Positions 7,041 through 27,112 of a stretch of DNA of 32,739 nt are shown in pieces. A model generated the notes under the pieces. The model did no database searches. It was not told the DNA's origin and saw only the letters and a list, made by a program, of their open reading frames with translations. The position numbers and the translations under genes are program-made. The stretch is taken from the IMG/VR virus record IMGVR_UViG_3300008459_000205, positions 1 through 32,739 of that record, one strand, 5' to 3'. The stretch comes from a virus. Each line of letters opens with the position of its first letter. Position 1 is the stretch's first letter.

Positions 7041-7502
7041 ATGAAAGAAATGGAATACGACCATGTATTTTTCTCGACAAAGGTCATTGAACTCGGATCA
7101 TGTGCTTTTCGCCAATGGAAAGCAATCCATAGTCATTGCAGTAAATTGCATGGTTATCGTTTGACTGCTAAATTTGTATTTGGATGTGATCGTCTCGATG
7201 AAAAAAACTGGGCAGTTGATTTTGGTGGATTGAAAGACCTTAAGAAAATTTTACAAGATCAATTTGACCATACCACCTGTGTCGCTGCTGATGATCCTTA
7301 TCTAGATAAATTCAAAGAATTACATGAACTTGGTGTTCTTGATCTTCGGATTATGCTCAATGGCGTTGGAGTCGAAAGAACAGCAGAATTTTGCTATAAT
7401 GCTGCTGCAAAAATCATTAAAGGAAAATATGGAGATCGTTGTTGGGTACAGAGCGTAGAAGTATTTGAACATGAAGATAATTCAGCAATTTCACACGGAT
7501 AA
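7041..7502 (+). CDS. queD: QueD-like 6-carboxytetrahydropterin synthase
   Basis: A 153-residue member of the PTPS/QueD fold, which turns 7,8-dihydroneopterin triphosphate into 6-carboxytetrahydropterin on the way to 7-deazaguanines (preQ0, queuosine, deazaguanine DNA modification). The active-site block HSHCSKLHGY (residues 30-39) has the catalytic Cys33 and zinc-binding His37. The usual HGH third ligand is HGY here, as I recall for other phage members, and the extra His30/His32 may compensate. Downstream are WAVDFGGLK (57-65), the DH pair at 76-77 and VGVERTAEF. queE lies 19 kb away in the same window, which supports a pathway role. The next gene starts 6 bases on. Confidence 0.9.
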   Translation: MKEMEYDHVFFSTKVIELGSCAFRQWKAIHSHCSKLHGYRLTAKFVFGCDRLDEKNWAVDFGGLKDLKKILQDQFDHTTCVAADDPYLDKFKELHELGVLDLRIMLNGVGVERTAEFCYNAAAKIIKGKYGDRCWVQSVEVFEHEDNSAISHG

Positions 7503-18802: not shown

Positions 18803-20176
18803 TCAGGCGCGTTGAATCATATTTATAGAAGCCCAAATTGAAGCATCGTTCGTAATTCCTTTACCAACAAGCGATAATGTTTCAGGAGTGCCATCAATTT
18901 TCATGCCCATTCTACCATTCAACCCACCAACTGCAACTTCACTCGTACCAATGCTTGATCCTTGTGATGCTCCTATAAATTTAGTCATTAAATCAATCCC
19001 ACCTGTAGCTGAAATTGAATTGCTTCCAATAGCATATTGGAGTGATGTGTTTGGAATATCATTCCACACTAATGAGGCACCACTAAAGGTAGCATTGTAT
19101 GCCAATTTATAGATGCATGAACCATTATTAGCTACATTGAGCAATTCTACAGACCTAACTAAAGGAACTATACTGCTTTGATTTGGATTCAAACGAACTA
19201 CAATGATCGGATGGAATGCCAAAACATCAACAGCAATGACTGCGCTAGTAGAAATTGATGCTGGCGTTCCTAGAATATCCTCATTGCCCTCAATAATGAC
19301 AGTCGAACAAATATGTTTCATTGAACCGCTTCCAGTTCCTGTTTGTCTTATTTCATATCGAATTGGCTGGTTTGGAATAGACAAATAGACTGCATTTAAC
19401 TGGTTGTAGTTCGTCACTTGATGTGCGTAGTAACATTTGCCTTGTAGGAAAAACCCAAACCGAACGCGACCAACACCGAGCCACTCATAGTCGAGTGTGA
19501 AAATTTGAGCCTTCGTAAAATCTATAGTCAAACCAGAAGATCCAGTTCCATCAAGTTTATCAATGTTCCATGATGATTGAGGTACAGTAACGTTATATGG
19601 AGTGCCATCATCCTTTTTAATAACAAACGATGCTCCGCTTGATGTTACTTCCAAATACATTCCGCTATTTGGTTCATAAGGGGCAGCAGATGCACTCTGA
19701 AACAAGCCAACACGCTTAATGATATTAGTTTGTGGAGCAAAAACTCCAGTAAAAATGCCTTGCATGCTTTTACCTGGCTGATAGTTGAAACGAAGAGGAG
19801 TCTGACGTATTACGTACGCGTTTGCGGATGTCGTAGACATTAATGTTAAGGAATCTCCAGATACATGAATACTCGTAGCATTTGATGAAACTATTTCATC
19901 AAAAACGACTGGCGTTTTATTATACAGTTGCTTTGAGTCTATTAGTGAAACTGGATTAGAAACTCTCAAGCGTCCGAATGCATCAGAAGAGGCATTATCA
20001 CCAAATGGACTTCCATTGGTTTGATCAGACTCGACATTGTAAACCAGAAGTGCGGTTTTATCATATACAGTAGGACCGGAAGCTGTAATTGCAGGAAAGC
20101 TCGAATCGCCTACAACCGAAACCCAGCACATTGTTTCTAGTGCTTGTTGTTGATATTTTGGGTTGGTATTAATCAT
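18803..20176 (-). CDS. Phage structural protein, fibre-like (FGRLRVSNP family)
   Basis: A 457-residue protein with the conserved N-terminal signature SDAFGRLRVSNP (about residues 64-75). Later come a segment with DKLDGTGSSGLTIDFTKAQ and the DYEWLGVGRVRFG block near residue 229. I recall this combination in many phage virion proteins from aquatic samples, often beside tail-fibre genes. The rest is beta-rich and ends in a Gly-rich stretch (IGASQGSSIGTSEVAVGGLNG). A receptor-facing or head-fibre role is inferred. The start is supported by ACTAAATA 6 bases upstream. It points away from the tmRNA and shares a 75-base intergenic region with it. Confidence 0.75.
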   Translation of the reverse strand: MINTNPKYQQQALETMCWVSVVGDSSFPAITASGPTVYDKTALLVYNVESDQTNGSPFGDNASSDAFGRLRVSNPVSLIDSKQLYNKTPVVFDEIVSSNATSIHVSGDSLTLMSTTSANAYVIRQTPLRFNYQPGKSMQGIFTGVFAPQTNIIKRVGLFQSASAAPYEPNSGMYLEVTSSGASFVIKKDDGTPYNVTVPQSSWNIDKLDGTGSSGLTIDFTKAQIFTLDYEWLGVGRVRFGFFLQGKCYYAHQVTNYNQLNAVYLSIPNQPIRYEIRQTGTGSGSMKHICSTVIIEGNEDILGTPASISTSAVIAVDVLAFHPIIVVRLNPNQSSIVPLVRSVELLNVANNGSCIYKLAYNATFSGASLVWNDIPNTSLQYAIGSNSISATGGIDLMTKFIGASQGSSIGTSEVAVGGLNGRMGMKIDGTPETLSLVGKGITNDASIWASINMIQRA

Positions 20177-20218: not shown

Positions 20219-20251
20219 AGTAAATAAATATTTGTTCTTTGAAATTTCAAT

Positions 20252-20669
20252 GGGGGTGAAATGGTTTCGATTTAGCAGGCACAAATCATCAATGCATGTA
20301 GTGGTTGATCGGCTGGCCACTTAAAAAGCCAATCAAAATACCAAATGCAAACGACACTGATGTCAATGCTCTCCTAGCACAAGCAGAATACATCTTCAAT
20401 AACGTTGACGAGTTCATCGTTGAAGAAGAAGCTCTACTTGCGGCATGACCAAATAATGTTTAGTCCCTATGTAAAACATTATGAGAAATAACAATAGGCA
20501 AGACTGAAGCATTTATGTCTGTAAGTTAAAATGCCAGTCAGTGGATGATGTTCATACACAAGGCAAGGATGATTTTACCAGCAAGCCTTAATTGCAAAAA
20601 AATCTAAACATGTAGAATTGTGATTTACTCTTGCTAAAGACTCCGGTTCAACTCCGGACACCTCCACCA
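20252..20669 (+). ncRNA. ssrA: Transfer-messenger RNA (tmRNA), one-piece
   Basis: A complete phage-encoded tmRNA of 418 nt. The 5' end GGGGGTG pairs with CACCTCC to form a 7-bp acceptor stem (one G-T), followed by discriminator A and an encoded CCA (20667-20669). The T arm is perfect: TCCGG, TTCAACT, CCGGA. Helix 2 can form between AGCAGGCACAAATCA and the strand holding TGATTT and CTTGCT near the 3' end. PK1 pairs 20301-20304 with 20317-20320 and 20305-20314 with 20327-20336. PK2 pairs 20453-20461 with 20474-20482 and 20462-20470 with 20494-20498 plus 20502-20505. tmRNA enters stalled ribosomes as alanyl-tRNA, templates a tag and directs the product to proteases. No smpB gene is in the window, so host SmpB may be used. 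Confidence 0.96.
20347..20448 (+). other. tmRNA proteolysis-tag reading frame (33 residues plus stop)
   Basis: The resume codon is GCA at 20347, in the context AAATGCAAACGAC, closely matching the bacterial GCAAACGAC start. The frame runs to TGA 20446-20448. The tag begins ANDTDVN, has an acidic EEE near its end and finishes in ALLAA. Bacterial tags are usually about 8-15 residues, so this is very long, but the terminal LAA recognised by ClpXP-type proteases is kept. Confidence 0.85.
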
Positions 20670-20687: not shown

Positions 20688-21284
20688 ATGAATTTTAATA
20701 CTTTCTGCGAACAATATGGCGGTGCCATGCAGATGCTTGTTAATGAAAGGGTAAGCAATAACCTTCAATATCATCTCGATCACAAAATCAAATTATGCGA
20801 AAATGCATTTCGTATATATTCACAATCCTATTTTGAATTGATCGAGGAAGTCCGTAAACTTTATTTCGAAAATAAAATTGCACTTTGTGATGATGATGCT
20901 GGACTAGTAGAATCTCAACTTGGCATAAAGGCAATTTATGAAGGGCGTGAAATTTGGCTTGATGCTCCTATTACAATTGAAGAAGATTATCTTACAGAAG
21001 CCAAATATAAAGGCAAAACTGTTAATCTTCGCAGACCATTCCGCACTCCAGGAGGCCCAAAAAAATTTGCTGTCTATGTTAAGAATAGCAAAGGCAATAT
21101 CATTAAAGTGACATTTGGAGATCCTAACCTTAAAATAAGAAATGACGACCCAGCCAGATCAAGATCATTCAGAGCTAGACATAAATGCGAAACAAGAAAA
21201 GATCCAACCAAAGCTAGCTACTGGTCTTGCAACATCGCAAGATATCGAAAAGCCCTTGGACTTAAATCTAGTCGACCATGGTGA
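20688..21284 (+). CDS. Conserved phage protein with a basic C-terminal domain
   Basis: A 198-residue protein. Residues 1-100 are helical and not recognised. From about 105 it carries a basic domain: RRPFRTPGGPKKFAVYVKN, then FGDPNLKIR, then RSFRARHKCETRKDP and YWSCNIARY. I recall this domain (FGDPNMxIK, then RxSFRARHxC, then YWSC) in proteins of many T4-like phages, sometimes fused to head proteins; its function is unknown to me. The two Cys (in RHKC and WSC) with nearby His may bind a metal. A perfect late octamer precedes the ATG. Its last 143 bases are overlapped in another frame by the cupin ORF. Confidence 0.75.
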   Translation: MNFNTFCEQYGGAMQMLVNERVSNNLQYHLDHKIKLCENAFRIYSQSYFELIEEVRKLYFENKIALCDDDAGLVESQLGIKAIYEGREIWLDAPITIEEDYLTEAKYKGKTVNLRRPFRTPGGPKKFAVYVKNSKGNIIKVTFGDPNLKIRNDDPARSRSFRARHKCETRKDPTKASYWSCNIARYRKALGLKSSRPW

Positions 21285-21558: not shown

Positions 21559-24033
21559 ATGTCAATTTTCAAATCAGTCCTGAGTTCTCTGTTAAATGAA
21601 GGCGGTCAAGCTGCTGAAAATTTAATTGCGCAATTGGCGAAAGATACAAACAACACCAGCCTCAAATATACAAGAGCGCTACCGACAAAAGAGGTAGTAT
21701 ATGAGGTTCAGCAATTATTAAAGATTCTTAGAAGCAAAAATTTAATCGACCGAAGAGAACCATCCTATTATCTAGGGTCTAGTAGATTATTTGCAATTAA
21801 AGCAGGATTAAGAGTTCCAGAACCAGATGAAATCGAAAGCCAAGAAATCATTAATAAAGCATTACAAACTAAGAAAGACTTTGGTGATATTGATTTAGAT
21901 GTGTATTTCGCTGCAGGGGTGACTACAAAAGATATAGGCAATTTCCTAAACAGCTATAAAGGAAAATACGCAGCTGCTGTTGGTGGTAATGAGATTAATA
22001 CCGCGGTCGTTGTTGATGGAACTAACAATGTAATTCAAATTGATATTGTTAATATTGAAGGTCGCGAACAGTATTTTGGCATGTCTCAATATGCTAGTAT
22101 GGCTGACATGTCAGTGGGTATCAAAGGCGTTGTGAGGGCTCTTCTTATTCGATCAATCGCAGCAACAAACCCAATCGATGTCAAAACAACAGAATATCTT
22201 GATAATCTCATCAAAGATACGGATGCATACAAAAACTTAGTAGCAAAGTACAGCCCACAAGAAATTGATTATGATTTAAGATACACATTAGGTGGTGATG
22301 GTTTAGCGTATAGAATCAATTGGCTTGTTGACGGAGTATCGCGTAACTACAGCAAAGGCGGTGTTAAATTCGACCAGCTTCAGCGATTTGTTTCAAACCA
22401 AGCAGTCACACCTGTAGCATACGAAGACATCGAAACTCTTGGTGCTGTATTAGGATTTAAAAATCCACAACATATGAAACATGTTGTTAAGATGGCTGAG
22501 CTGGTTTCAACTTTTGATGATGAACGCAAACAAAGCATTTGGAATGCGCTCGTCAAGAATCTCAAAACTAAAACACCAACAGCCACTAGAACACAAGGCC
22601 AAATCTCCACAGCAGAAGCCGCAAATGCATTAAAATACTTAAAACCATATTTTGGTGATATTGATTTTTCAGAAGCATCTGAATTTATGGGTGAAATGAC
22701 CGAAGCAGTAAAAATGACTTCTATTCCTCATATTGATCAAATGACACCAAAAGATTTTTGTAATCTTTTTAACGGTGGTGCCTGGGAAGTTTCAGAAAAA
22801 TATGACGGGTCGAATGTGTCATTTGGATTGTTAGATGGAGAAATTTTTGTCAAATCGAAAAAAGGAAATCCAGTTACAAATGAGCAGGATTTTATTGATA
22901 TGGCAGAAAAATTCGATAATGATATTTTTCTTGGATTTGCAAGGCTTCTTGCTGCTCTTAAAAAGAGTGACTTCAAATCTCTCATAAGTGGTATCGAATC
23001 TTCATTAGATTCACAAGTGCAGATATTCGGTGAAATGTTTAGCAAGCCTCACATGAATGTCATTCCTTATGCAGTAGATAAAATTGGAAATGGTGCTATT
23101 GTAATTTTCGGTGTTGTTAAATTAAATTCACCAAAAGGAACAGATATTACCACAACAGAGGACGGCCAAGCAATTAAAGATCAAATAGTCGAAGAAGTAA
23201 ACGGCGTTGATGGATGGATTTTCTATTCTAAAAAGCCTTTGTCTCTTGAGGTGACTGATGAAATTAAAACACAAATTCAGCGTGTTTGTGGTACTGAAAA
23301 TATGGCAATAATGGCCTCCAGAAAACGAACTGGAACTGAAGCTGAAATGAAAGCCAAATCATTATCAGAATTCCGCACCTTACAAGCATTAATCAAAAAA
23401 GAAATGCTTGGAGGTGTCGCTAATATTCCATCATCATTAGGTGCAGAAGAAATCGAAGGTGCTATCATTCGAAACATGCAGACAGGAGCAATTGCAAAGC
23501 TTGTCGATCTCGAAGGATTCGGTCGTCGCAGAGCCGAACAATGGGCGGGTGTTGATGCTCTGAAAAATTATCGTAAATCTCTCTTTAATAATCTCAAAGA
23601 AGATGTTCTTAAAAATGCGGACATCTTTATTCTTGACGACAAACAAGTACAGAAATTATCAGATGCAGTCGAGACAAGAGGGTCAAGATTTACAAGTCTT
23701 GATGATATGATTGACATATTATACGGCGATGCTGCTGATGAAGTGCAATTCGAAGAAGCATCAAAAATGGTAGCAGATCTATCAAACACATTAAAGCAAT
23801 ATCAAAAAGATATTGAAGGTGCGTTGACACAAATTAATAAAGATGATGCGAAAGCATATCAGGATACACAAAAAGCAATCACTTCAGAAAAGACAAGAAT
23901 CGATCAATTTATCATCGAATTAAACAAAAGAATTCTGAATAATCAAAATCCATATCTGTCGGTGATTGCATTTATCCTTGGACCGAGATCAATTGATGAT
24001 CTGAAAAAGAAATTCATGACTGCTGTTAAGTAA
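21559..24033 (+). CDS. Nucleotidyltransferase / RNA ligase fusion protein (824 aa)
   Basis: Two nucleotide-transfer domains are readable. Residues about 40-200 are a polymerase-beta-type nucleotidyltransferase: LGSS at 72-75, the paired acids Asp110/Asp112/Asp114 in DFGDIDLDV, and a third Asp162 in IQIDIV, which together form the metal triad. Residues about 395-655 are an RNA ligase domain: motif I EKYDGSN with nucleotidyl-lysine Lys414, motif III-like FGEM (490-493), motif IV EGAIIRN (633-639) and motif V AKLVD (646-650). All key residues are present, so both activities look intact. Residues 655-824 are helical, with a coiled coil about 730-790. The chemistry suggests RNA end repair (add or trim nucleotides, then seal) or nucleotidylation of a target. 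The substrate is unknown. Confidence 0.82.
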   Translation: MSIFKSVLSSLLNEGGQAAENLIAQLAKDTNNTSLKYTRALPTKEVVYEVQQLLKILRSKNLIDRREPSYYLGSSRLFAIKAGLRVPEPDEIESQEIINKALQTKKDFGDIDLDVYFAAGVTTKDIGNFLNSYKGKYAAAVGGNEINTAVVVDGTNNVIQIDIVNIEGREQYFGMSQYASMADMSVGIKGVVRALLIRSIAATNPIDVKTTEYLDNLIKDTDAYKNLVAKYSPQEIDYDLRYTLGGDGLAYRINWLVDGVSRNYSKGGVKFDQLQRFVSNQAVTPVAYEDIETLGAVLGFKNPQHMKHVVKMAELVSTFDDERKQSIWNALVKNLKTKTPTATRTQGQISTAEAANALKYLKPYFGDIDFSEASEFMGEMTEAVKMTSIPHIDQMTPKDFCNLFNGGAWEVSEKYDGSNVSFGLLDGEIFVKSKKGNPVTNEQDFIDMAEKFDNDIFLGFARLLAALKKSDFKSLISGIESSLDSQVQIFGEMFSKPHMNVIPYAVDKIGNGAIVIFGVVKLNSPKGTDITTTEDGQAIKDQIVEEVNGVDGWIFYSKKPLSLEVTDEIKTQIQRVCGTENMAIMASRKRTGTEAEMKAKSLSEFRTLQALIKKEMLGGVANIPSSLGAEEIEGAIIRNMQTGAIAKLVDLEGFGRRRAEQWAGVDALKNYRKSLFNNLKEDVLKNADIFILDDKQVQKLSDAVETRGSRFTSLDDMIDILYGDAADEVQFEEASKMVADLSNTLKQYQKDIEGALTQINKDDAKAYQDTQKAITSEKTRIDQFIIELNKRILNNQNPYLSVIAFILGPRSIDDLKKKFMTAVK

Positions 24034-26242: not shown

Positions 26243-26271
26243 TTGATTTATTCATTGCCTGGTGTTATAAT
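26243..26271 (+). promoter_or_regulatory. Sigma70-like promoter of queE
   Basis: TTGATT (26243-26248), a 17-base spacer and a perfect TATAAT (26266-26271). The -10 ends 7 bases before the ATG at 26279. An in-frame ATG at 26243 overlaps the -35 and cannot be the start if this promoter is used. Confidence 0.75.
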
Positions 26272-26278
26272 AGACCAT

Positions 26279-27112
26279 ATGACACCAACTCAAACAACAC
26301 TTCCGATTGCTGAAGATTTTTACTCAGTTCAATGTGAAGGCATCACCACAGGCAAGCCTGCATATTTCATCCGACTGAAAGGCTGTAATCTAACATGCGG
26401 TGCTTCTCCTGCGTTCATTAAACAAATTCAAAGCCAAGGAAAAGGCAATATTGATTCGGGATCTTTTGTGGGCGATTTACATCAGGAAGATAAAGCATCA
26501 TGGACTTGTGATTCGATTCCTGTATGGCTATTCGGAGAAGCACAGCCATTTGATTATCTCACTACAAAATGGAAATCACACACCATGCCAAACGGCAAAT
26601 CAATGCTCGAATGGATTAAGCATAGATATATTCATTTGATTTGGACTGGTGGTGAACCTGCAATGCATCAGAAAAAAATTGAAGCATTTCTTGATTCACT
26701 TTTAGGTGAAGGGGTATTGCCATACAATGAAATTGAAACAAACGGTACTCTCGTATTGGAAGATAATTTTCTTGATCATCTCTCGCAAATCAATTGCAGT
26801 CTCAAGCTGAGCAATTCGGGCATGGCAAAACAAAAGAGGCTAAATGGTGATGCAATCAAATCAGTGCAGAAGCATTGGAATCATTGGTTCAAATTCGTCA
26901 TCTCAACAGAGGATGATATTCAGGAATTTATTAAGGAAGTATGTGAACCGTATGATATTGACATGGCAAATGTTGTGTGTATGCCTGGTTTGGATTGTCG
27001 AGAGGACTTCCACGAGCGCACACAATTTGTATTAGAGATGGCTAAAAAATATGGATTCCATGGATTGACTCGTCTGCATATTTCGGCTTGGGATAAAACA
27101 ACATCAGTATAA
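26279..27112 (+). CDS. queE: QueE-like 7-carboxy-7-deazaguanine synthase (radical SAM)
   Basis: 277 residues from the ATG at 26279. QueE rearranges 6-carboxytetrahydropterin into 7-carboxy-7-deazaguanine using S-adenosylmethionine and a [4Fe-4S] cluster, directly after QueD. The N-terminus EDFYSVQCEGITTGKPAYFIRLKGCNLTC fits QueE except for phage-type changes. The cluster cysteines are Cys36 and Cys40 (CxxxC), but the third, Cys77 in WTCDS, comes 36 residues later because of an inserted loop, instead of two residues later. GGEP (124-127) and NEIETNGT (later) are the usual SAM and substrate motifs. A tandem repeat lies at its stop, leading into the ATPase gene. Confidence 0.88.
   Translation: MTPTQTTLPIAEDFYSVQCEGITTGKPAYFIRLKGCNLTCGASPAFIKQIQSQGKGNIDSGSFVGDLHQEDKASWTCDSIPVWLFGEAQPFDYLTTKWKSHTMPNGKSMLEWIKHRYIHLIWTGGEPAMHQKKIEAFLDSLLGEGVLPYNEIETNGTLVLEDNFLDHLSQINCSLKLSNSGMAKQKRLNGDAIKSVQKHWNHWFKFVISTEDDIQEFIKEVCEPYDIDMANVVCMPGLDCREDFHERTQFVLEMAKKYGFHGLTRLHISAWDKTTSV

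Follow-up and report, generated by a model that had tools for sequence, protein, structure and literature searches.

A phage tmRNA whose 33-residue tag appears to belong to a conserved long-tag family selected at the protein level

The window, that is, the whole 32,739-base virus record that was analyzed, contains a one-piece tmRNA gene that is preceded by a boxA-like leader and flanked by two protein-coding genes. The features of the locus are listed below, where the basis of an assignment is given in parentheses.

18803-20176, minus strand: flanking gene, virion structural protein phrog_1645 (the same family adjoins the tmRNA in locus L312)
20234-20247, plus strand: boxA-like leader GTTCTTTGAAATTT, just 5' of the tmRNA (core TCTTTGA[AT]A at 20236-20244)
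20252-20669, plus strand: one-piece tmRNA gene, ssrA (ARAGORN, Rfam RF00023)
20252-20258, plus strand: 5' strand of the acceptor stem, GGGGGTG, its third base in the G3.U70 pair (sequence)
20347-20448, plus strand: tag frame with GCA resume codon, 33 codons, and TGA at 20446-20448 (ARAGORN, sequence)
20371-20415, plus strand: conserved tag core LLAQAEYIFNNVDEF, tag residues 9-23 (alignment of relatives)
20437-20445, plus strand: LAA C-terminus of the tag, a predicted ClpX-type degron (LAA in 45 of 60 distinct tags)
20454-20498, plus strand: pseudoknot PK2 (sequence; covariation in relatives)
20642-20658, plus strand: T arm with a perfect 5-bp stem, TCCGG-TTCAACT-CCGGA (sequence, Rfam alignment)
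20659-20669, plus strand: 3' strand of the acceptor stem, CACCTCC, followed by ACCA (sequence)
20688-21284, plus strand: flanking gene, 198-aa protein of unknown function, phrog_7595

Run on the window, ARAGORN placed a tmRNA with a 33-aa tag at exactly 20252-20669, and RF00023 matched the same interval over its entire length (model positions 1-374 of 374) with 115.7 bits (E 8e-45), where the gathering score is 47. Two of the checks proposed in the preliminary description, ARAGORN and a covariance model, thus both matched the full span. The tRNA-like domain claimed there was read directly in the sequence: the acceptor stem of 7 bp (GGGGGTG/CACCTCC) includes the G3.U70 pair, the T arm is perfect, and the CCA end is encoded in the window; in some relatives it is not encoded. 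Likewise, the GCA resume codon at 20347, which lies in the context GCAAACGAC, and the 33 sense codons to TGA were read directly, and ARAGORN agrees. The pseudoknots of that description were also recovered. In PK2, TAATGTTT (20454-20461) pairs with AAACATTA (20474-20481) to form the first helix, and CCTAT (20466-20470) pairs with ATAGG (20494-20498) to form the second; PK2 is backed by covariation in relatives, and the basis for the other pseudoknots is the Rfam alignment. The permuted two-piece class was excluded by the standard order and by the match to RF00023 rather than to a permuted model. With a full-length RF00023 match, the G3.U70 pair and CCA, a tag frame closed by a stop, and pseudoknots around the tag, the locus belongs to the tmRNAs, and it is very probably a real tmRNA that uses its long tag.

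The window is assigned to a T4-like phage, with a major capsid protein that shares approximately 32-35% identity with cyanomyovirus and marine virus counterparts; a T4-type prohead protease, a clamp-loader-like AAA protein, and a dUTPase are also encoded. In addition, QueD-like PTPS and QueE-like radical-SAM proteins are found at 7041-7502 and 26243-27112, which suggests 7-deazaguanine synthesis, and an 824-aa protein at 21559-24033 has an internal RNA-ligase domain with long flanks that carry no assignment. Among the large contigs with the long-tag tmRNA, a T4-type gp23 gene was found in seven of 24, where the remaining contigs may be fragments. The long-tag tmRNA occurs in several genomic neighborhoods, often with tRNAs nearby. 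As for host markers, the cyanobacterial marker psbA was absent from the 15 contigs examined, and the actinobacterial marker WhiB was absent from the 24 contigs examined. Phages that encode the 198-aa neighbor protein of the window have other tmRNAs: a permuted tmRNA with the 10-aa tag ANDEYYALAA in G075, identical covariance hits in G076 (L226/L227 for the pair), and a one-piece tmRNA with the 20-aa tag AEENVVSYDFSYDDVVAIAA in G049 (L192).

The tag of the window comprises 33 residues, ANDTDVNALLAQAEYIFNNVDEFIVEEEALLAA, with three D, five E, and no K or R, and its C-terminus is LLAA. As had been claimed, it is unusually long, given that tags of 10 aa are the commonest in the tmRNA database (PMC11915505). 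Among 29 one-piece viral tmRNAs fetched irrespective of their tags, the tag length given by ARAGORN had a median of 14 and a maximum of 31. A helix was predicted for residues 3-18 and 20-23, with a mean pLDDT of 92 over residues 11-20, the prediction being for the isolated 33-mer with a low pTM of 0.42. Matches to BepA helices in the PDB (E 0.008-0.04) were dismissed as chance similarity between helices. A free peptide product, as entertained earlier, is unlikely, since the tag frame lies inside the tmRNA and lacks a consistent start codon; the latter ground also led to the rejection of an independent small-peptide gene.

Relatives were sought among the 2.9 million viral contigs of IMG/VR with a degenerate DNA pattern for [DE]YIFNNxDEF. 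The search returned 66 contigs, all of which have the core in the tag frame and in a tmRNA context. An Ala codon precedes the core by 11-13 codons, and an acidic stretch and a stop follow it, the one exception being a contig that ends first. When the covariance model was applied to 19 of these records, 17 matched at full length above the cut-off and two ran off the contig end. Because the core pattern itself selects for the motif, a tag-blind search was run with two patterns derived solely from the pseudoknot that follows the stop codon. It identified 15 more distinct tags of 32-45 residues, which follow the same plan with one exception and include the replacements YILNN, YIINH, YCFNN, SEF, and DDV within the motif. 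Four further distinct tags came from loci already found.

The resulting 60 distinct tag genes included 57 with 33-35 codons, one with 32, and two with 45, and no early stops. An early stop that leaves a short real tag, a possibility raised in the preliminary description, was looked for and is absent, as the tag frame stays open for 32-45 codons in all 60 distinct relatives. All tags but one are strongly acidic (net charge -8 to -12 in 59 of 60, with K and R almost absent), and the stretch from the core to LAA varies freely. The LAA end is kept, as first described, in the window tag, and occurs in 45 of the 60, where a final A is found in 58; the 15 tags without LAA, which include close relatives of the window's, end in LFA, LVA, MVA, LLT, MFV, or others, and AFA was found in none. 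The 45-residue tags (L275, 83-217, plus strand, and L276) carry an 11-residue insertion that resembles a partial repeat of the core. Two viral tmRNAs with tags of 31 and 25 aa (L062 and L060, respectively) have tag ends that resemble those of the long-tag family and are possibly its distant relatives.

Comparison of the tags revealed selection on the peptide. Of the single-base codon differences, 67% were synonymous in the tag frame versus 15% in each of the other two frames, figures that give a direction rather than a formal significance, as pairwise codon counts are non-independent. Since the synonymous excess was observed in the tag frame only, the peptide itself is under selection. Diversity at the three codon positions was 0.18, 0.16, and 0.42 (0.21, 0.16, and 0.42 in the set that was not motif-selected), and pN/pS was 0.33 overall and 0.40 in the latter set; a divergent tag with an uncertain start (L333) was excluded from both the unselected-set diversity and the comparison of frames. 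Residues A1, A13, Y15, and N18 had no replacements in 59 aligned tags, with third codon positions varying, where Y15 and N18 belonged to the first search pattern and not to the second. Some third positions are nearly fixed, for example CTC/GTC/ATC at tag position 24. The long tag marks a conserved phage family in which the amino-acid sequence is under selection, a finding that the preliminary description had not anticipated.

The RNA fold was also conserved. In twelve relatives, the PK2 helices were 99.4% paired, 30 cells were changed on both sides compared with 9 expected from shuffles, and the covariation score was 0.605, whereas shuffling gave 0.212 and sliding no more than 0.152. A second PK2 subclass agreed with the first, the two being counted separately because a joint alignment is out of register between them. 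The G3.U70 pair was found in 36 of the 37 resolved acceptor stems of relatives, and the one exception is ambiguous by an inserted base. The tmRNA is under structural selection as well as peptide selection.

Upstream of the tmRNA, the leader core TCTTTGA[AT]A was found within 48 nt in 43 of 56 relatives, which are non-independent, compared with approximately 0.002 expected per site. The usual forms of the leader, GATCTTTGAAATTT or GTTCTTTGAAATTT, are similar but not identical to the gamma-proteobacterial boxA consensus GYTCTTTAANA (PMC5725501), and they suggest an rRNA-style antitermination of the untranslated RNA.

Among the 66 motif loci, ARAGORN missed 48 and misread 18, mostly by placing the tag start some 10 codons too far downstream. 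Surveys of phage tmRNAs that are based on ARAGORN, one of which reported a tmRNA in 402 of 18,146 phage genomes (PMC9004378), would therefore undercount this class where it is present. The tmRNA of the Gordonia phage GodonK (L397, 206-734), which spans 529 bases, is also unannotated and missed by ARAGORN, and a tRNA-His is annotated inside it.

A relaxed motif had five matches in 84,980 bacterial and archaeal genomes, none of which was in a tmRNA, and a host origin of the tag was rejected on this ground. In 50,697 phage records, no match to the tag motif was found above chance. A known isolate with the tag was sought by tblastn of a family tag, which gave chance matches only, the best in an E. 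coli-like protein. With blastn, the tmRNAs of relatives matched cultured phages in short pieces only (among the matches listed, the 3' T-arm end), and the window's own tmRNA had one 30-base match. A full-text literature search for the core peptides found no paper. Hence, the conserved family of 33-35 residues with its core and LAA end appears to have no precedent in anything searchable here. Long phage tags as such do have precedent, because acidic tags of 25 residues occur in Momo and apparently in GodonK; the rarity first claimed for the long tag is therefore only partly borne out.

Compared with bacterial one-piece tmRNAs (RF00023), the phage tmRNA shares the gene order, the acceptor stem and T arm, the G3.U70 pair, the resume-codon context, the pseudoknots, and LAA, whereas it differs in a tag of 33 residues instead of the usual 10, in an acidic core for which no cellular counterpart was found, and in that an SmpB gene is not alongside it. 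The Bxz1-type mycobacteriophage Momo (KR080196), compared here as a Bxz1 relative, and GodonK, whose 25-aa tag was read by eye from the sequence, likewise have one-piece phage tmRNAs with acidic 25-aa tags, but these tags are shorter, end in AALV, and lack the LLAxAEYIFNNADEF core, and the hosts are actinobacterial. With 33 aa and LLAA, the window tag falls outside the Bxz1 type, which is defined by a 25-aa tag and the AALV end. The tmRNA of Mycoplasma also has a tag extended far past the bacterial norm, but it is cellular and has an AFA end that is tied to the absence of ClpXP (PMC3985003); the window tag ends in LAA and is not of the Mycoplasma type, in which an AFA end is read by Lon. The extended, Lon-read tag of Mycoplasma is the working precedent for a longer tag that changes protease use. 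The cyanophages S-CAM1 and S-CBWM1 and the OM43 phage Melnitz resemble the window in carrying a tmRNA in large aquatic tailed phages, but theirs are permuted and two-piece, and the cyanophage tags are host-like with 21 and 15 aa (PMC9004378). Cultured T4-like cyanophages have permuted, host-type tmRNAs instead.

The best overall explanation, held with moderate confidence, is a functional phage tmRNA with a two-part tag signal composed of a docking core and LAA. The G3.U70 pair directs alanine charging, and through it the host AlaRS would charge the phage tmRNA with alanine. Host EF-Tu and SmpB would deliver it to ribosomes stalled on broken mRNAs, the use of host SmpB being proposed because no SmpB gene was found in 45 long-tag contigs, many of them fragments. 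The stalled ribosomes would resume at GCA 20347, so that the unfinished protein receives Ala and the 33-residue tag. The core LLAxAEYIFNNADEF, which is acidic and probably helical, may then dock on an adaptor, a protease, or another partner, a role proposed because fixation of Y15 and N18 would be needless in a plain spacer; a specific partner for the core is somewhat favored. The C-terminal LAA would pass the tagged protein to ClpXP-type proteolysis, and it is likely that tagged proteins are degraded. The RNA fold, the long frame, the peptide selection, and the LAA of most members are read from sequence and comparison.

ClpXP and ClpAP recognize the C-terminal ALAA of tags (PMC3985003). The LAA that marks a ClpXP substrate tag is present in the window tag and in 45 of 60, and the prevalence of LAA and of a final A is consistent with a ClpX-type recognition of ALAA, although this reading may be relaxed in some lineages because 15 tags lack LAA. 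Homologues of SspB and ClpS were not encoded in the 24 largest contigs, and phage-encoded SmpB, SspB, or ClpS was rejected, as none was found in the contigs examined. ClpP homologues were found in six of the 45 long-tag contigs (G005, G006, G008, G013, G026, and G038) and not in the near neighbor G011. Recruitment of another protease or adaptor by the tag is plausible.

Alternatively, the extra length might be an acidic or flexible lead-in that aids engagement by the host protease, with no specific partner and only LAA mattering. Such a lead-in would fit LAA as the commonest end, the net charge of -8 to -12 with few K or R, and the free variation between core and LAA, but it is considered unlikely, as A13, Y15, and N18 are unreplaced in the 59 aligned tags where third codon positions vary, and the core is also kept in tags found without using it. 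The tag could instead retarget proteins to another protease, such as Lon, through several contacts rather than to ClpXP. The loss of LAA in some family members points in this direction, as does the extended Mycoplasma tag that co-evolved with Lon, as described where PMC3985003 cites Ge and Karzai (2009) and Gur and Sauer (2008). However, the Mycoplasma AFA end is tied to the absence of ClpXP (PMC3985003) and most phage tags keep LAA, and retargeting of this kind is quite improbable.

The phage tmRNA might also work by titrating SmpB or displacing the host tmRNA, as an inhibitor or a decoy, with the tag secondary. For example, the endogenous tmRNA of E. coli is inhibited by the tmRNA of phage DS6A, which consists of a tRNA-like domain only (PMC11915505, PMC4131195). 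Selection on the tag peptide makes this role very improbable, since a decoy could do without a tag. It is exceedingly improbable that the tag sequence is kept for the RNA, by its fold or SmpB contacts, with the peptide incidental, or that the gene descends from a host tmRNA and is in decay. The tag frame does lie inside a structured RNA, and third positions such as those at tag position 24 are nearly fixed, but the in-frame synonymous excess, the codon-position pattern, the compensatory changes in PK2, and the lack of a cellular tmRNA with the long-tag core among the 84,980 genomes all argue to the contrary.

The tags of tmRNAs are usually regarded as degrons of approximately 10 residues. The family described here has tags of 33-35 residues, is phage-only in this study, and is under protein-level selection across many contigs, and phages would therefore have shaped the tag for a purpose. 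It is possible, and is put forward tentatively, that the conserved acidic, helical core serves as a handle dedicated to directing tagged proteins to one particular factor of phage or host, that trans-translation would serve as a means of retargeting proteins in the takeover of the host instead of copying host quality control, and that such tags may have arisen repeatedly, in aquatic T4-like phages, in Bxz1-like phages, and in GodonK.
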